The notes beneath the pieces were generated by a model. The model ran no database searches. It saw nothing but the letters and a program-made list of their open reading frames with translations, and had not been told where the DNA came from. This document shows positions 2,763 through 9,432 of a stretch of 12,065 nt of DNA, one piece after another (the stretch's first letter is position 1; each line of letters opens with the position of its first letter). The stretch is from Solirubrobacterales bacterium 70-9 (GTDB lineage Bacteria > Actinomycetota > Thermoleophilia > Solirubrobacterales > 70-9): contig MKSH01000034.1 of NCBI GenBank assembly GCA_001898095.1, positions 38,264 to 50,328 of the forward strand, given 5' to 3'. The translations under genes and the position numbers were made by a program.

Positions 2763-3845
2763 TCAGTTCGACAGGAATGCTTCGACAGCGGCCGCGTCGG
2801 CTTTCAGCCGGCCGGCCGCTTTTTTCGTCACCTTCTCCAGGTCTTCGATCTCCACCCTCCCCTTGGGGAGGCGCCAGGTGGCGACGGCTCGCCCTTTGAC
2901 CAGGGCGAAGGGGCGGAAGATCCCGTTGTTCGTCACCAGTCCTTTGTGCGGGCCGATCACGGCCTCGCGCGAGGCCCAGCCGAGGAGCAGCGGGTCGAAG
3001 GCGCCCAGGAGCATCGGCTCTGGGAGGGGCGCGGGCTCCTCGCGGTTGCGCAGGTCGAGGAGGCCGTCGCCGCGGTCGACGGTGCGGCGGGAGATCGCGG
3101 ACAGGCCGGCGCGGGCGTCGCGGAGCGGCAGGCCTGCCCAGCGGGCGAGGTCGGCGTCGGTGGCGGGACCGTGGGCGATCAGGTAGCGGTGGGCGAGCTC
3201 TTTCAGGGATGCCTCGCGGGAGGGGCCGGGGTGGACCCCTTCGCTCACGAACTGCGGGGAGGTTCGTTCAGGGGTCCACCCCGGCCCCATCACAGGGGCC
3301 AACCAATCGCGGGCTGAGACGAAGGCGTGCTCTTTCCCCTTCATCGGACCGCGGATGCAGATGCCTTGCAGCGAGGCGTAGAAGAGGATGTGGACCAGGG
3401 CTTGGCCTGCGGTGGGGACGTCGGCGGAGTCGAGGGCGTCGCGGAGTTCGGCGCGGGTTCGGGGGCCGTCCTCGAGGGCACGGGCGACGACCTCGACGCC
3501 GCGGTCGGCGCGGTCCCCCACCCCGGTCTGCCGCAGGCGCGTGCGGCAGGAGGTCCACAGCTGGGGCGTCGTCAGCGACTGGAGCAGCGGGTAGTCCTCA
3601 CTGCGGATCAAGTGCAAAGTTCCGCGGTTGACCCAGGTGATGATCAGCCGCCGCTCGTCCAGCGCCCGGTCCACATCGGAGGCAACCAGCCCCTCGCTCC
3701 GCGCCCGCACCGCCAACCACGCCCCTCTCGGGTCCTGCCCCTGAATCGCCAGCAAGCGCTCAGCTACCTCAGCTGGATCCCGAGCCGGCCTCGTCGCCAA
3801 CCCCTGCGCAGTGATCCGCGCCGCGTGCAGTTCGGTTGCCCGCAC
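2763..3845 (-). CDS. AlkZ-like winged-helix DNA-binding protein (HTH_42 family) with in-frame palindrome insertion
   Basis: The 360-residue protein matches the winged-helix family that includes AlkZ and YcaQ/AlkX DNA glycosylases. The N-terminal part has LLAIQGQDPRGAW with Q35-G-Q37, equivalent to the catalytic QxQ motif. WVNRGTLHLIRSEDYPLL (about 70-87) and the later GAFDPLLLGWASREAVIGP and TWRLPKGRVEIE blocks follow the family order. Many actinobacterial members have no proven activity, so glycosylase function is an inference. Residues 187-208 (containing WTPERTSPQFVSEGVHP) are encoded by a perfect palindromic repeat and look like an insertion in a linker before LKELAHRYLIAHGPA. The start is GTG at 3845; upstream the frame stays open but holds no other start codon and no Shine-Dalgarno, because a second copy of the palindrome sits 10 nt before it. 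It probably shares a transcript with the PRC-barrel gene. Confidence 0.85.
   Translation of the reverse strand: MRATELHAARITAQGLATRPARDPAEVAERLLAIQGQDPRGAWLAVRARSEGLVASDVDRALDERRLIITWVNRGTLHLIRSEDYPLLQSLTTPQLWTSCRTRLRQTGVGDRADRGVEVVARALEDGPRTRAELRDALDSADVPTAGQALVHILFYASLQGICIRGPMKGKEHAFVSARDWLAPVMGPGWTPERTSPQFVSEGVHPGPSREASLKELAHRYLIAHGPATDADLARWAGLPLRDARAGLSAISRRTVDRGDGLLDLRNREEPAPLPEPMLLGAFDPLLLGWASREAVIGPHKGLVTNNGIFRPFALVKGRAVATWRLPKGRVEIEDLEKVTKKAAGRLKADAAAVEAFLSN
3222..3288 (-). repeat. Palindromic element copy 1, inside the winged-helix CDS
   Basis: Arms 3222-3240 and 3270-3288 are perfect 19-bp inverted repeats around a 29-nt loop (3241-3269). Read on the minus strand, the loop begins GAACGAACCTCCCCGC, the same 16 bases as in copy 2, and both copies share the inner arm TGGACCCCT/AGGGGTCCA. 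Within the loop a smaller CGAAC/GTTCG pair is possible. The element adds 22 codons without breaking the frame of the host gene. It resembles the small palindromic repeats that insert into genes in other bacteria, but I do not recognise this family. Confidence 0.85.
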
Positions 3846-3934: not shown

Positions 3935-4303
3935 TCAGCCCTTACCGGAGAGCAAGTTCCAAGCTCGTCGCCAAAAGCTCGGCTCCGGCTCGCCCGCCAC
4001 GTCGTCCGGCGAGACCTCGATCGTGCCCGGATTCTTGCCCGGCTTCGCCAGTTTGGCCGCCGTGGCCGCGTCGATCGAGAGTACGACGCCGTTCTCGTAG
4101 ATCCCCTCGACCTCGGGCGCGTCGACGAATTTGTGACCGCCGGGCCGGTCGTGGGGGGTGTCGAAGATGATCCCGTCGAAGAGGTCGGCCTCGGGCGCGT
4201 CGAGCACCTCGACCACCGTCCCCAGCTTCACCTCGTCGCTGGAGTAGACGGGGATGCCGCGCCGGGCGACGAGGTAGGAGACCTTGGAGCCGAGATCGTC
4301 CAC
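3935..4303 (-). CDS. PRC-barrel domain protein
   Basis: The 122-residue product is a short cytosolic protein whose N-terminal half (about 14-80) reads GIPVYSSDEVKLGTVVEVLDAPEADLFDGIIFDT. This is the beta-barrel pattern shared with the photosynthetic reaction centre H subunit and RimM (PRC-barrel). The remainder, with a conserved 'YENGVVLSIDAATAAKLAKPG' block and a Trp-containing tail, is typical of actinobacterial members. PRC-barrel domains commonly mediate protein-protein or RNA-related contacts; no specific role is visible here. The GTG start at 4303 has no Shine-Dalgarno but lies exactly 6 nt after a TAGGCT box, suggesting a leaderless message. It is followed by the winged-helix gene on the same strand and is divergent from the acyl-CoA ligase. 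Confidence 0.78.
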   Translation of the reverse strand: MDDLGSKVSYLVARRGIPVYSSDEVKLGTVVEVLDAPEADLFDGIIFDTPHDRPGGHKFVDAPEVEGIYENGVVLSIDAATAAKLAKPGKNPGTIEVSPDDVAGEPEPSFWRRAWNLLSGKG

Positions 4304-4315
4304 GCCGCGAGCCTA
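4304..4315 (-). promoter_or_regulatory. Leaderless-type -10 box of PRC-barrel gene
   Basis: TAGGCT at 4315-4310 (minus strand, TAnnnT) is followed by six bases and then the GTG start codon. This matches the spacing expected when transcription begins at the start codon, and there is no ribosome-binding site to argue otherwise. No -35 box was recognised. Confidence 0.4.
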
Positions 4316-4371
4316 GCGGAGCAGCGCCGCGACGCCCAGTCCGGTCCGCGTGGACGGGCGCAGCGCGGCAC

Positions 4372-4377
4372 TACACT
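4372..4377 (+). promoter_or_regulatory. -10 box TACACT of acyl-CoA ligase gene
   Basis: TACACT lies 32 nt upstream of the ATG at 4410, leaving a short 5' leader that contains GGGAAGGGA (4397-4405) as ribosome-binding site. A weak -35 candidate TGGACG is at 4351-4356 with a short 15-bp spacer. The box also argues that the upstream in-frame GTG at 4350 is not the start. Confidence 0.45.
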
Positions 4378-4409
4378 CGGGCTGGGAAACCCCGACGGGA
4401 AGGGAACGC

Positions 4410-5927
4410 ATGGGAACGAACTTGGCCTCCATCGTCACCGAGAGCGCCTCGCGCGACGGCGCCGCGCCGGCGGTGCGACTGGGCGCACGGACGCTCACCT
4501 ACGGCGAGCTTGCCGACGGAACCGCGCGGGTCGTGACGTTGCTGCGCGAGCGCGGCCTGCAGCCCGGCGACCGGGTCGGGGTGATGGTGCCGAACGTGCC
4601 CGAGTTCCCCCTCGCCTATTACGGGATCCTGCGCGCCGGGGGCATCGTCGTGCCGATGAACGTGCTGCTGAAACGGCGCGAGATCTCCTTCTACCTGGAG
4701 GATTCGGGGGCGAAGCTGTTGCTCGCCTGGCACGGGTTCGTCGAGGAGGCGCGGGCCGGCGCCGAGGAGGCGGGCACCGAGTTGATCGAGGTCGAGCCGG
4801 AGTCGTTCGCCGAGACCCTCGGCGCGCTCGAGCCGACGCCGGGGATCGCCGAGGTCGACGTCGAGGACACGGCGGTGATCCTCTACACCTCGGGCACCAC
4901 CGGCAAACCGAAGGGCGCCGCGCTCGCCCACCGCAACCTCGACGAAAACTCGGAGATCATCTCCCGCACGACCCTCCTGATCGGGCCCGGCGACGTCGTC
5001 CTCGGCGCTCTGCCGCTCTTCCACACCTTCGGCCAGACGGTGGCGATGAACGCCTCGATACGGGTCGGCGCCTGCCTCACCCTGATGCCGAAATTCGATC
5101 CCGGCGAGGCGCTGGCGACGATCGACCGCGACGGCGTCACCCATTTCTACGGCGTGCCGACGATGTACGGGGCGCTGCTCCACCACCCCGAACGGGAGAA
5201 GTTCGACACCTCGACCCTGCGGCTCTGCAAGACCGGCGGCGCCTCGATGCCGGTCGAGGTCCTGTACGGGTTCGAAGAGGCGTTCGGCACCGAGCTGATC
5301 GAGGGCTACGGGCTCTCGGAGACCTCGCCGGTCGCCTCCTCCGGGCATCCGAATCAGACCCGCAAGCCGGGCTCGATCGGAACCCCGATCGAAAAGGTCG
5401 AGATGCGGATCGTCGACGAGAACGACCAAGAGGTGCAGCAGGGCGAGGTCGGCGAGATCGTGATCCGCGGCCACAACATCATGAAGGGCTACTGGGACCG
5501 CCCCGACGCGACCGCCGAGGCGATCCGCGACGGCTGGTTCCACAGCGGCGACCTCGGCCGCGAAGACGAGGACGGCTTCTTCTTCGTCGTCGACCGCAAG
5601 AAGGACATGATCATCCGCGGCGGCTACAACGTCTATCCCCGCGAGGTCGAGGAGCTCCTCTACGAGCACCCAGGGGTCCGTGAAGCGGCCGTGCTCGGCG
5701 TCCCCCACCCCGAGTGGGGCGAGGAGGTGGGAGCCGCCGTCGTCCTCGAGCCGGGCGCCGACGACATCGCCCCGGAGGAGATCAGCGCCTGGGTGCGCGA
5801 GCGGATCGCCGCCTACAAGTACCCGCGCGTGGTCTGGTTCCTCGACGAGCTGCCGAAAGGCCCGACCGGCAAGATCGTGAAGCGCGAGATCGAGGTCCCG
5901 GCGGCAGCCGACGCGTCCGCCTCCTAG
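4410..5927 (+). CDS. Long-chain fatty-acid--CoA ligase (FadD-like, AMP-forming)
   Basis: Activates a carboxylic acid, probably a fatty acid, to its acyl-adenylate and then its CoA thioester in the cytosol. The 505-residue protein carries the full ANL superfamily set: YTSGTTGKPKG (159-169, phosphate-binding loop), GYGLSETSP (A5), GWFHSGDLG (A7), DRKKDMIIRGGYNVYPREVEE (A8 hinge) and PKGPTGKIVKRE near the C-terminus with catalytic lysine K488. The length is typical of short FadD-type ligases; the chain length preferred cannot be read from sequence. I chose ATG 4410 over the upstream in-frame GTG at 4350 because GGGAAGGGA precedes it, a TACACT box lies between the two, and family N-termini begin close to 'NLASIVTESASRDGAAPAV'. 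The R2lox-SCP2 gene follows after 63 bp on the same strand. Confidence 0.92.
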   Translation: MGTNLASIVTESASRDGAAPAVRLGARTLTYGELADGTARVVTLLRERGLQPGDRVGVMVPNVPEFPLAYYGILRAGGIVVPMNVLLKRREISFYLEDSGAKLLLAWHGFVEEARAGAEEAGTELIEVEPESFAETLGALEPTPGIAEVDVEDTAVILYTSGTTGKPKGAALAHRNLDENSEIISRTTLLIGPGDVVLGALPLFHTFGQTVAMNASIRVGACLTLMPKFDPGEALATIDRDGVTHFYGVPTMYGALLHHPEREKFDTSTLRLCKTGGASMPVEVLYGFEEAFGTELIEGYGLSETSPVASSGHPNQTRKPGSIGTPIEKVEMRIVDENDQEVQQGEVGEIVIRGHNIMKGYWDRPDATAEAIRDGWFHSGDLGREDEDGFFFVVDRKKDMIIRGGYNVYPREVEELLYEHPGVREAAVLGVPHPEWGEEVGAAVVLEPGADDIAPEEISAWVRERIAAYKYPRVVWFLDELPKGPTGKIVKREIEVPAAADASAS

Positions 5928-5940
5928 CCGGCGGCCCGAG

Positions 5941-5964
5941 GCTGCGGTACTCTCAAGTACCAGC
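5941..5964 (+). promoter_or_regulatory. TACTCT -10 box overlapped by inverted repeat, before R2lox-SCP2 gene
   Basis: TACTCT at 5948-5953 is a good -10 box 38 nt before the ATG at 5991. It lies inside the perfect inverted repeat GTACT-CTCA-AGTAC (5947-5960), and flanking GCTG (5941-5944) pairs with CAGC (5961-5964) after a two-base bulge. A regulator site or a hairpin covering the promoter are both possible. No -35 box was recognised. It suggests the oxidase gene can be transcribed separately from the ligase gene. Confidence 0.35.
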
Positions 5965-5990
5965 GGGCCAACCAGCGAAACGGGGAAGAG

Positions 5991-7280
5991 ATGAGCGTCG
6001 CCTCTCAGCGTCTGATGGAGAACGTCACCTACGAGGATCTCTACCGACGATGGGAGCAGGGCAACTGGAGTGCCTACGACATCGACTTCTCCGCCGACGT
6101 GGGCGGCTGGGCGGGCCTCAGTGACATCCAGCGCCGCTCGGCGATGTGGATCTACTCGATGTTCTTCTACGGCGAGGACCGGGTCGCCGACACCCTCGCC
6201 CCTTACATCACCGCGGCGCCGACCGAGGAGCAGTCCTACTTCCTCGCCACCCAGCAGGTCGACGAGGTGCGCCACTCGCTCTTCTTCCACCGCTTCTTCA
6301 AGGAGGTGATCGGGGTCGGCGGCGAGAGCCTCGAGGAGACGCTCGCCTCCACCCTGCCGCAGCTGAACTGGGGGTACCGCGGCGTCTTCGATCGCCTCGA
6401 CCGGATGGCGGCGGAGCTGCGCAAGGACACCTCGTTGCCGAAGTACGCGCAGGCGATCACGCTCTACCACTTGATCGTCGAGGGCAGCCTCGCCCAGCCG
6501 GGCCAGCACTTCATCGAGGACTTCTTCGCCAAGGAGGAGGTGATGCCCGGGTTCAGCGCCGGGATGGCGAACGTCTCCCGCGACGAGCAGCGCCACATCG
6601 GCTTCGGCGTGAAAGTGCTCTCCGAACTGCTCGCCCCCTCCCACCCCGCCTCGACGGAGTGCCGCGCCGCGGTGGTCGAGCTGCTGAAGGAAGTCGTCGC
6701 CTTCACCCCCGCCGTCTTCCGGCCGCCGAACCTCGATCGCTCCTACACCGAGTGCTACGGCTTCACGATGGAGGACATCTACACCTTCGGGCTGAAACTG
6801 GTCCGCCAGCGCTGGCGCACGATCGGCTTCCCGACCGAGGAGATGCCGCCCGGCGTCTTCCCCTTCGACCCGGCCGAGCCGGAGGAGTCGATCGCCGCCA
6901 ACCAGGTGAAGATGATGCTCGGCGGGATCCTCGGCCCGGTCGACGGCGCCGTCACGCCGAGCACCGACCCGGAACTGATGCGCCTCTACTTCGACATGAC
7001 CGCGCGGGCCGCCGACCCGGCGGCGGCGAACGGCACGCCGCTCGTATACCAGTGGCGCTTCAGCGACGCCGAGCCCTGGACGCTGACGATCGACAACGGC
7101 TCCACCCGCGCCGAACCCGGCGTGGCGGCCAACCCGGCGGTGACGATCGAGAGCACCTGGGCCGACTGGCTCGCCTCGACCAAACCCGACGCCAACCCGC
7201 TGAAGATGCTCCTCAGCCGCAAGATCCGCCCCCACGGCAGCCCCCGTGAGCTGCTCCGCCTGCGCAAGGTCTTCGGCTAA
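5991..7280 (+). CDS. R2lox-like di-metal oxidase fused to C-terminal SCP2 domain
   Basis: The 429-residue protein has an N-terminal ferritin-fold domain of the ribonucleotide-reductase R2-like type (about 1-300). The full carboxylate/histidine set is visible: E62, E92-x-x-H95, E164, E199-x-x-H202. Spacing and two further residues point to R2lox rather than a true R2: V65 (E62+3) and Y159 (E164-5) occupy the places of the Val and Tyr that form the ether cross-link in R2lox. R2lox proteins assemble a Mn/Fe centre and bind a long-chain fatty acid; their substrate is unknown. The C-terminal part (about 325-429; WRFSDAEPWTLTIDNG, NPAVTIESTWADWLAS, NPLKMLLSRKIRPHG, RLRKVFG) matches an SCP2 sterol/lipid-carrier domain. 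The ATG at 5991 follows GGGGAAGAG. The gene is downstream of an acyl-CoA ligase, fitting lipid chemistry. Domain calls are firm; R2lox subtype is by residue spacing. Confidence 0.85.
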   Translation: MSVASQRLMENVTYEDLYRRWEQGNWSAYDIDFSADVGGWAGLSDIQRRSAMWIYSMFFYGEDRVADTLAPYITAAPTEEQSYFLATQQVDEVRHSLFFHRFFKEVIGVGGESLEETLASTLPQLNWGYRGVFDRLDRMAAELRKDTSLPKYAQAITLYHLIVEGSLAQPGQHFIEDFFAKEEVMPGFSAGMANVSRDEQRHIGFGVKVLSELLAPSHPASTECRAAVVELLKEVVAFTPAVFRPPNLDRSYTECYGFTMEDIYTFGLKLVRQRWRTIGFPTEEMPPGVFPFDPAEPEESIAANQVKMMLGGILGPVDGAVTPSTDPELMRLYFDMTARAADPAAANGTPLVYQWRFSDAEPWTLTIDNGSTRAEPGVAANPAVTIESTWADWLASTKPDANPLKMLLSRKIRPHGSPRELLRLRKVFG

Positions 7281-7282
7281 GT

Positions 7283-7331
7283 GTTGATGGGCCGAAAAGC
7301 GCTCTATATCAGCGCTTTTCGGCCCATCAAC
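7283..7331. terminator. Bidirectional intrinsic terminator (21-bp perfect stem)
   Basis: Positions 7283-7303 pair perfectly with 7311-7331 around a 7-nt loop CTATATC. The inner part AAAAGCGCT/AGCGCTTTT gives a T-run on each strand at the foot of a shorter GC hairpin, so it can end transcripts from both convergent genes (R2lox-SCP2 on plus, amidase on minus). It sits 2 bp after one stop and 8 bp from the other. Confidence 0.85.
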
Positions 7332-7339
7332 GTGAGGAC

Positions 7340-8755
7340 CTAGGAGATCGGGGGGCGCTGGTCGGCCCAGGGGCGCTCGGCCTCGATCTGGGCGGCGAGG
7401 GAGAGCAGGAGCGGCTCGCTCTCGCGGCGGCCGATGATCTGGATCGCCAGCGGCATGCCGTCGGCGCCGAGGCCGAAGGGGATCGACATCGCCGGGTTGC
7501 CGGTGTGGTTCCAGGGCACGCAGTAGGGATAGAAGCGGCTCATCCCGAGCACCGTGTAGAGGGCGCTGCGGCCCTGCCATTTGCGGATCGGCACCGCCGT
7601 GCCGCCCATCACCGGCATCACCAGGACGTCGAAGTCGTCGAAGATCGCGTTGAGGCGGGCGATCTCCTCCGGGCGTTTGGCCATCGCTTTTTCGTAGAGC
7701 GACTCGGGGAGCAGGCCGCCGAGCGTGCCGAAGCCGCGGGTTCGCCGTTCGAGGCGCTCCGGCAGCGGCACTTCCTCGACGGTTTCCGCGACTCCCTTGA
7801 GGAAGCGCGCGGTGATCGTGTCGCCGACCCGGCCCCAGTCGGGATCGCGCGGGGAGACGTCGTGGCCGAGGCCGGCGAGGAAGGCGGCGGCGTCGGCGGT
7901 CGCCCCCTTCACCTCGTCGGAGACGTTCGGCGGGGCGAGCGCCCGCGGCGCCAGGGTCGACCAGGCGACCTTCAGCTTGCCCGGCGAGTCCTTGACCGAC
8001 TCGACGAAGGGCTTCGCCGGAGGTGCCGGCGCTTCGTCCTCCTTCGAGCCGCCGGAGACGACGTCGAGCCAGAGCGCGGTGTCGAGCACCGAGCGGCTGA
8101 GGCAGCCTTCGACCGCCATGCCGCGCCAGCCCTCGAGCTTCGGCGCCAGCGAGACGCGCCCGCGGCTCGGCTTCAGGCCGAAGAGACCGTTGCAGGCGGC
8201 CGGGATGCGGATCGAGCCGGCGCCGTCGCCGGCCGAGGCGATCGGCACCATGCCGGCGGCGACCGCCGCGCCGGAGCCGCCGCTGGAGCCCCCCGGCGTG
8301 CGCTGCGGGTTCCACGGGTTGCGGGTCACCCCGTAGGTGGCGGACTCGGTGAAGCCGCAGATCGCCAGCTCCGGCAGCAGGGTGAGGCCGACGATGATCG
8401 CCCCCGCCGCGCGCAGCCGGCGGACCACCTCGGAATCGGCCTTGGCGGGCACCTCGAAGGCGTCGGTGCCGTGCGTGTTGATCTCGCCGGCGACGTCGAT
8501 TTCGTCCTTGATCGCGATCGGCACGCCGAGCAGCGGCCGGGTGTCGCCGGCGCTCCGCCGCGCCTCCGCCTGCTCCGCCTCGAGCATCGCTTTGTCCGCG
8601 AAGACCTTGCGAAAAGCGTTCAGCTCGGGGTCGAGCCGATCGATCCGTTCCAGCGACTGGCCGACCAGCTCGGTCGGGCTGACGTCCCCGGCGCGGACCA
8701 TCTCCGCCTGCCGGGCCAACCCCGCGAACGCGATGTCATCTCCCCCCTGCGGCAA
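7340..8755 (-). CDS. Amidase-signature family hydrolase
   Basis: Hydrolyses an amide bond by the Ser-cisSer-Lys mechanism; the substrate is unknown. With a start at 8755 the protein has 471 residues, a normal length. Catalytic residues are visible: Lys83 in GVPIAIKDEIDVAG, cis-Ser157 in PGGSSGGSGAAVA, and nucleophile Ser181 in GDGAGSIRIPAACNG. The block 'FGLKPSRGRVS' after it is also typical. It could be annotated as a GatA-like amidase, but no gatB or gatC is adjacent, so a stand-alone hydrolase is more likely. No ATG or GTG lies before the conserved DIAFAGLARQAEMV. I chose the TTG at 8755, preceded by AAGGTAGG 9 nt upstream; a longer TTG start at 8815 would run through a hairpin. It follows a TetR regulator gene on the same strand. 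Confidence 0.87.
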   Translation of the reverse strand: MPQGGDDIAFAGLARQAEMVRAGDVSPTELVGQSLERIDRLDPELNAFRKVFADKAMLEAEQAEARRSAGDTRPLLGVPIAIKDEIDVAGEINTHGTDAFEVPAKADSEVVRRLRAAGAIIVGLTLLPELAICGFTESATYGVTRNPWNPQRTPGGSSGGSGAAVAAGMVPIASAGDGAGSIRIPAACNGLFGLKPSRGRVSLAPKLEGWRGMAVEGCLSRSVLDTALWLDVVSGGSKEDEAPAPPAKPFVESVKDSPGKLKVAWSTLAPRALAPPNVSDEVKGATADAAAFLAGLGHDVSPRDPDWGRVGDTITARFLKGVAETVEEVPLPERLERRTRGFGTLGGLLPESLYEKAMAKRPEEIARLNAIFDDFDVLVMPVMGGTAVPIRKWQGRSALYTVLGMSRFYPYCVPWNHTGNPAMSIPFGLGADGMPLAIQIIGRRESEPLLLSLAAQIEAERPWADQRPPIS

Positions 8756-8773
8756 GGGGCAGATCCTACCTTC

Positions 8774-8812
8774 CGTGGTTCCTTTTGCTCCTATCCAGGC
8801 AAAGGAACCGCG
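8774..8812. other. Stem-loop between TetR gene and amidase gene
   Basis: CGTGGTTCCTTT (8774-8785) pairs with AAAGGAACCGCG (8801-8812), 12 bp with one T-G wobble and a 15-nt loop. It follows the TetR stop on the minus strand by 11 bp and precedes the amidase start. It may terminate or attenuate the TetR transcript before the amidase, or serve as an operator-like palindrome. No T-tract follows on the minus strand. Confidence 0.4.
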
Positions 8813-8823
8813 CAAGGGGCGGG

Positions 8824-9432
8824 TCAGTCGGAGACGAGGAGGTAGCGGGCGCTGGCGGCACCTGCGGTCAGGGCCGGCTTGATGTCGCGGCTGGGGTCGC
8901 TCAGGGCCTGGAGGGCGAAGCCGTCGGCGACGGCGAGGAGGTAGGCGACGACGGCCTCGGCGTCGAAGCGGAGGCTGAGGATCTTCTCGTCTTCCTTCGC
9001 CCGCAGGACGTCGGCGACGTGGGAGCGGGTCGCCTCGAAGAGCTGGCCGACCTCTTTCTGGATGTCGGGGTTGCGGCGGCCGGCGCTGAACAGCTCGTAG
9101 AGGAGGAGGAAGTAGCCGGGATCGTTGTCGATCATGTCGGTGAGGCTCTTGACCAGGACGTCGAGGACGGCGTCGGCGGTCTTCGCCTTCGCCAGCAGCT
9201 CGTCGAGGCGGGCGATCCGCAGTTCGGTGTCGCGCCTCACGACCTCGACCAGGAGCCGCTCCTTGGTGCCGAAGTAGTAGTGAAGGAGGCCGCGGCTGAC
9301 CCCGGCCTCGCGGGCGACGTGCTCGAAGGTCGAGCCCGCCGCGCCGCGCCTGGCGACGCTGTCGCGCATCGCGTCGACGATGCGCTGCGCCTTCTCGCCG
9401 CTGAGCTGACGCTCTTTGGTCGCCGCCTCCAC
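8824..9432 (-). CDS. TetR-family transcriptional regulator
   Basis: The 202-residue protein has a TetR_N helix-turn-helix at about 12-60 (RIVDAMRDSVARRGAAGSTFEHVAREAGVSRGLLHYYFGTKERLLVEVV), with the characteristic GLLHYYFGTKERLL recognition helix. A ligand-binding C-terminal domain follows. The ligand is unknown. The GTG start at 9432 has GGAAAGGG just upstream, with a short spacer, and sits 18 bp after the stop of the preceding membrane-protein gene, so the two are probably co-transcribed. The amidase gene follows 68 bp downstream on the same strand; regulation of the amidase is a reasonable guess from position only. Confidence 0.9.
   Translation of the reverse strand: MEAATKERQLSGEKAQRIVDAMRDSVARRGAAGSTFEHVAREAGVSRGLLHYYFGTKERLLVEVVRRDTELRIARLDELLAKAKTADAVLDVLVKSLTDMIDNDPGYFLLLYELFSAGRRNPDIQKEVGQLFEATRSHVADVLRAKEDEKILSLRFDAEAVVAYLLAVADGFALQALSDPSRDIKPALTAGAASARYLLVSD

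Follow-up and report, generated by a model that had tools for sequence, protein, structure and literature searches.

What does an oxidase of the R2-like ligand-binding oxidase (R2lox) type act on, and can a carrier domain attached to it provide the answer? The substrate that R2lox enzymes use in nature is not settled, and such a domain offers a direct route to it through the carrier's own ligand. The question is raised by a gene in a 12,065-nucleotide stretch of DNA from the soil-type actinobacterium Solirubrobacterales bacterium 70-9 (assembly GCA_001898095.1, contig MKSH01000034.1, positions 38,264 to 50,328, forward strand). This whole stretch is referred to as the window, and its numbering is used unless another locus is named. 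The gene (5991..7280, + strand, ATG start) encodes a 429-residue protein in which an R2lox-like oxidase domain is followed by an SCP2 domain. The initial annotation, which had proposed this fusion, also described R2lox as having no known substrate. That description is dated: hydroxylation of alkanes has been claimed for GkR2loxI (PMC10867098). The claim rests on crude lysate, in which the activity fell only partly in a double mutant of the metal ligands, and the GkR2loxI gene lies in a beta-oxidation-type cluster (PMC10867098).

The fusion is real. Residues 14-237 matched PF00268 (E = 1.6e-15; 57.6 bits against a Pfam cut-off of 33.6) and residues 351-428 matched SCP2, PF02036 (E = 4.5e-5; 24.2 bits against 21.3), bearing out both halves of the proposed two-domain protein. 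Based on alignment to R2lox structures, the ferritin-type domain spans residues 11-281 (6021..6833, + strand); the SCP2 domain spans residues 327-428 approximately (6969..7274, + strand). Among 74 diverse relatives in the family alignment, PF00268 was matched by all 74 and SCP2 by 70 at E values up to 0.001. The AlphaFold model of the full protein had a predicted local distance difference test (pLDDT) score of 92.8 and a predicted template-modelling (pTM) score of 0.91; structure models were judged on the scores returned rather than on coordinates. In comparisons with solved structures, R2lox was the closest fold to the predicted N-terminal domain, and the predicted C-terminal domain had the SCP2 fold. 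A scan of contigs from public genomes, using patterns drawn from the window protein, revealed full-length conservation at 56-88% identity across 24 loci. The titles of 21 of these name Actinomycetota or one of its subgroups, and those of the other three say only "bacterium"; the nearest public relatives are mostly metagenome-assembled genomes titled Solirubrobacterales or Actinomycetota. The contig that carries the window is 53.9 kb long and comes from an assembly that is 84% complete. Gene calls were made using our own script and not a standard caller.

We evaluated the spread of this architecture using class and phylum searches covering Actinomycetota. The fusion proved common within the class and was also present in two further families of Actinomycetota. 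Counted by rows, it was full length in 62 of the 299 class genomes and partial or split in four more (G041, G180, G192, and G260), and every class genome with a fusion, full or partial, belongs to the window's taxonomic order. Among 396 phylum genomes, full-length fusions were found in at least 12 from the two other families (11 from f13 and one from f18), some of which carry two or three. Databases already list the architecture, for example as "Ribonucleotide reductase, small chain/SCP-2 sterol transfer family", and ribonucleotide reductase (RNR) is the name that many of these proteins bear there. Literature searches pairing R2lox or ribonucleotide reductase with SCP2 or sterol carrier found no paper on the fusion.

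The set of metal ligands in the R2lox-like domain is intact. The translation and the alignment with the GkR2loxI chain placed six ligands where the initial annotation had numbered them, all on the + strand: E62 (6174..6176), E92 and H95 (6264..6275), E164 (6480..6482), and E199 and H202 (6585..6596). The same holds for V65 (6183..6185) and Y159 (6465..6467). The equivalents in GkR2loxI are E69, V72, E102, H105, Y162, E167, E202, and H205 (PMC10867098), of which V72 and Y162 are the cross-link partners (PMC6399176); V65 and Y159 could be cross-linked likewise. Conservation was assessed in two sets. For the fusions, 119 open reading frames (ORFs) were collapsed to 92, with two partial hits left out. 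All eight residues were kept in 62/62 fusions of the order-level set and in 14/19 from other families. The second set comprised the best 120 hits of each of three protein homology searches (of 4985, 1672, and 1786 hits, respectively); in these 360 listed homologues, the window protein included, the eight residues were kept without exception, as was A168 (6492..6494, + strand), the counterpart of Gk A171. Gk A171 lines the fatty-acid tunnel, and the A171F substitution excludes the fatty acid from the active site (PMC6399176); the fatty acid in R2lox crystals has been presumed to be an artefact of heterologous production (PMC4118035). The five other-family fusions with degenerate sites (L095 and L097-L100) lack E62 and Y159; three of them have also lost H95, and three have lost V65.

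Residues beyond the ligands set the protein apart. Six R2lox-specific residues have been named: a Gly, a Pro, an Ala, an Arg, a Lys, and a cavity Tyr (PMC3824934). Four are present in the window protein as G61, P71, A168, and R201, the last lying between E199 and H202. The other two are replaced in 62/62 order-level fusions: the Lys by R94, between E92 and H95, and the Tyr by Q172 (6504..6506, + strand). In a comparison by group, with 10 of 79 rows assigned to none, the classical R2lox rows had the Lys in 18/18 and the Tyr in 17/18. In the deepest fusion subgroup, Ala replaced G61 in 120/120 of the best 120 hits of its search. The Val/Tyr pair, which had been put forward as the counterpart of the R2lox cross-link, is present and conserved. 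We rejected it as proof of R2lox identity: the RNR-like outgroup rows partly share both residues (Val in 3/3 and Tyr in 2/3), so the pair alone is not diagnostic.

Profiles and trees agreed with a position beside, rather than within, the characterized R2lox proteins. The five best NCBIfam models were all R2-like ligand-binding oxidases, and the window protein fell below the cut-off of each, the best score being 118.3 bits against 194. All five models matched 74/74 family members, versus 57 to 63 for the RNR models. In a tree of 115 sequences, the classical R2lox proteins, including four of solved structure, formed one clade (82.8/87), and their sister group comprised the fusions together with standalone paralogues (93.1/90). 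All 35 C-terminal-SCP2 fusions formed a single clade (99.8/100). The same sister relationship was obtained in a first tree of 76 sequences, from which L105, L149, and L154 were dropped. Support for the joint groups was weaker in an intermediate tree that retained L124-L126 and dropped L130, L132, L133, L151, and L152 besides the initial three: the common group of all fusions, including L124-L126, had support of 65.6/53. Standalone copies were added for the 115-sequence tree, and long branches were removed; it lacked all eight rows dropped from the intermediate tree and also L124, L125, L126, and L135. Thus, the window protein has an R2lox-like scaffold and metal site, as the initial annotation held, and is placed outside the characterized R2lox clade with moderate support; the label "R2lox-type" fits its fold and site and not its clade membership. 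Placement of the N-terminal domain outside the R2lox clade was one of the outcomes that the initial annotation had named as refuting it, and this outcome was obtained in part. The protein further differs from the solved R2lox proteins (4hr0, 3ee4, 7qbp, 6qrz, and 7qbk), with which it shares the fold, the six ligands, the Val/Tyr pair, and the tunnel Ala, Gly, Pro, and Arg, in carrying a 120-residue linker plus SCP2 extension. The window's genome also encodes a standalone R2lox-like paralogue (G000:C112; L002 1504-2538, - strand) that is 36% identical to the window protein over residues 12-283.

The same modules also occur in the reverse order. Four genes originally fetched as standalone paralogues encode proteins of 566-599 residues with two SCP2-like stretches ahead of the R2lox-like domain: L163 7942-9717 (-), L164 7758-9557 (-), L166 7930-9672 (-), and L194 3207-4907 (+). 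Pfam identified two SCP2 stretches and PF00268 in both of the proteins scanned (L163 and L194), and all four kept the ligand and Val/Tyr positions. Counting the genome of the query, 6 of the 299 class genomes carry this tandem form at full length; in two others (G169 and G214) it is incomplete. Its best non-tandem matches in the class search were standalone paralogues and not the window-type fusions. In the 115-sequence tree, the tandem proteins, including the two incomplete cases, formed their own clade (100/100) apart from the C-terminal fusions; the branch joining this clade to the rest had support of 26.4/33. The reversed order and the separate clades argue for two pairings of the R2lox-like and SCP2 modules. 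The attachment of SCP2 at opposite ends supports functional coupling of the two domains, and the case for a lipid carrier, first made from the single fusion, is stronger than it was. The SCP2-SCP2-R2lox-like architecture is a new observation of this analysis. Together with the changed cavity residue of the sister clade, SCP2 at either end shows a greater variety among R2lox-like enzymes than the solved structures represent.

Stretches resembling the tandem SCP2 were also seen elsewhere, in the C-terminal parts of ORFs of 666-798 residues (L230 3491-5689, -; L231 2278-4674, +; L232 4371-6725, -; L234 3704-5704, -; E = 1e-18 to 1e-27). Scanned whole, the L230 and L231 ORFs had no Pfam match at 1e-5. 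Separately, tandem-SCP2 R2lox-like genes are immediately preceded by a gene for a metallo-beta-lactamase-fold protein (L194 2530-3207, +; L236 6241-6948, +), and a related gene cluster recurs in many of the standalone R2lox-like loci (19 loci).

At a probability of roughly 0.5, we consider the window protein to be a cytosolic, O2-activating dimetal-carboxylate oxidase of a sister clade of R2lox, supplied by its SCP2 domain with a hydrophobic substrate, likeliest fatty acyl. In such an enzyme, a dimetal-carboxylate site, presumably Mn/Fe or Fe/Fe, would activate O2. The C-terminal SCP2 domain would bind a long-chain hydrophobic substrate and pass it into the oxidase domain's tunnel for a two-electron oxidation, for instance a hydroxylation or desaturation, drawing on a putative electron donor. 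The likeliest substrate would be a fatty acyl chain, either free or as a CoA ester from the neighbouring acyl-CoA ligase. More broadly, the fusion, in both orders, hints that R2lox-like enzymes act on fatty or other oily molecules. If so, the ligand of the carrier domain could reveal the substrate class of these enzymes. We propose only tentatively that a sister clade of R2lox in Actinomycetota gained SCP2 twice, at the C-terminus and as an N-terminal tandem, that these carriers bring acyl chains or acyl-CoA to a site of Mn/Fe or Fe/Fe type where C-H bonds are oxidized, and that the substrate class could then be read from the carrier's ligand.

Enzymes with attached or associated SCP2 domains provide partial precedents. 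The best fold match to the window's SCP2 domain was the SCP2-like domain of the alkylsulfatases SdsA1, Pisa1, and SdsAP, which are metalloenzymes of long alkyl substrates with this domain at the C-terminus; they differ in having a metallo-beta-lactamase fold and in catalyzing hydrolysis, not O2 chemistry. In MFE-2 (SCP-2L) and the SCPx-type thiolase/SCP2 (1ikt and 4uei), SCP2 is similarly fused to an enzyme. These proteins act in acyl-chain metabolism, although they belong to eukaryotic beta-oxidation and lack a redox dimetal site. The hydroxylases of the Ubi metabolon are flavin hydroxylases. The SCP2 domain of UbiJ has been proposed to keep a lipid intermediate close to hydroxylases (PMC9499169). 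UbiJ is a separate protein and serves an isoprenoid substrate.

Several observations weigh against the proposed acyl-chain oxidase. SCP2-like folds have other uses. The genes around the fusions (acyl-CoA ligase, acyl-CoA dehydrogenase, TetR) fit an acyl substrate but are lineage-specific. The cavity Tyr, which in GkR2loxI (Y175) lines the cavity and is a proposed participant in substrate oxidation (PMC4118035), is replaced by Gln. Finally, a separate SCP2 gene was found near only 1 of 46 standalone R2lox-like loci (L116); 50 loci had been taken as standalone, of which four proved to be the tandem-SCP2 fusions. At 1/46, there is no enrichment, and we rejected such neighbours as support.

The other uses of the fold open the way to a different role for the SCP2 domain. 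It might be a dimerization, lid, or docking module in an oxidase that works like the standalone R2lox-like proteins, a reading that we consider unlikely without being far-fetched. Fold comparison detected SCP2-like folds in SpnK, Eis, and MycE, where these domains have non-carrier roles, and many standalone paralogues without SCP2 occur in the same genomes as the fusions, the window's own included. The pairing at both ends of the oxidase bears instead on coupling, as described above. We also doubt that the carrier serves a hydrophobic substrate of a non-acyl kind, such as a quinone, isoprenoid, or secondary metabolite, by analogy with the hydroxylases served by UbiJ or the AurF/VlmB-type oxygenases: the informative neighbours of the fusions are acyl-CoA enzymes and FasR-like regulators, and R2lox proteins match the window protein far better than do AurF or VlmB.

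It is improbable that the fusion has become a lipid-binding scaffold or sensor whose main role is no longer oxidation. The five degenerate paralogues of another family, which lost metal ligands and Y159, kept the fold, and adjoin acyl-CoA dehydrogenase genes, illustrate such a course, yet proteins of the window's type keep every ligand (62/62 fusions and 360/360 among the best 120 hits of each search). Finally, the database names of its relatives and its own match to PF00268 would make the window protein an RNR small subunit, with whose R2 subunits it shares the superfamily and the ferritin-type fold. This is very improbable. The window's genome has another protein that matches PF00268 far better (218.7 versus 57.7 bits), and the RNR profile NF007186 gave 20.2 bits against a cut-off of 237, less than the R2lox models. 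Fold scores and the family-wide profile counts likewise favour R2lox over RNR, and the chain ends in an SCP2 domain.

The gene directly upstream of the fusion encodes an acyl-CoA ligase (4350..5927, + strand; possible ATG start at 4410) and ends 63 bases before it; co-transcription of the two is likely, if unproven. No promoter was detected in a scan of 4200-7500, a result of little weight in an actinobacterium. Ten loci, each closely related to the window, have an acyl-CoA ligase no more than two genes from the fusion, and two further loci have one at a distance of three genes; in L106, from another family, the ligase is on the opposite strand, two genes from the fusion. We rejected the ligase operon as a general feature, since it is local to near relatives of the window. 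Of the 17 other-family loci in which the fusion had a gene call, 7 have an acyl-CoA dehydrogenase gene adjacent to the fusion or next but one to it. Five of these seven fusions are the degenerate copies, which are possibly non-catalytic lipid-binding proteins. L089 and L096, with intact sites, have no gene call at the fusion, but genes of that dehydrogenase cluster are present at both.

TetR-family genes occupied 25 of the 203 positions at a distance of one or two genes from order-level fusions versus 10 of 374 farther away, in related and hence not independent loci; the TetR profile for the neighbour count was seeded with the neighbour clusters. By Pfam, they made up 13 of 101 immediate neighbours versus 3 of 96 background genes (96 of the 246 genes at a distance of four to six places), again in related, not independent, loci. 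For the divergently oriented TetR neighbours at L015, L026, and L101 (the last from another family), FasR was the nearest match, at 92-113 bits against a cut-off of 330. FasR responds to long acyl-CoA (PMC7382501). At L118, a locus of the mycobacterial R2lox type (ortholog of 3ee4), the upstream genes include TetR and acyl-CoA dehydrogenase genes.

Downstream of the fusion gene in the window lie a convergent amidase gene (7340..8815, - strand), which we do not claim as part of the system, and, two genes downstream on the opposite strand, a TetR-family regulator gene (8824..9432, - strand). Farther upstream is a gene for an AlkZ-like DNA glycosylase (2763-3845, - strand; PF06224, E = 3e-54). 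Just past the stop codon of the fusion gene, between the convergent genes, is a perfect hairpin with a 20-bp stem (7283..7331). This 49-base element had 77 copies at no more than three mismatches in the 4.2-Mb assembly, versus none for a reversed control pattern, and may be terminator-like or a mobile palindromic repeat.
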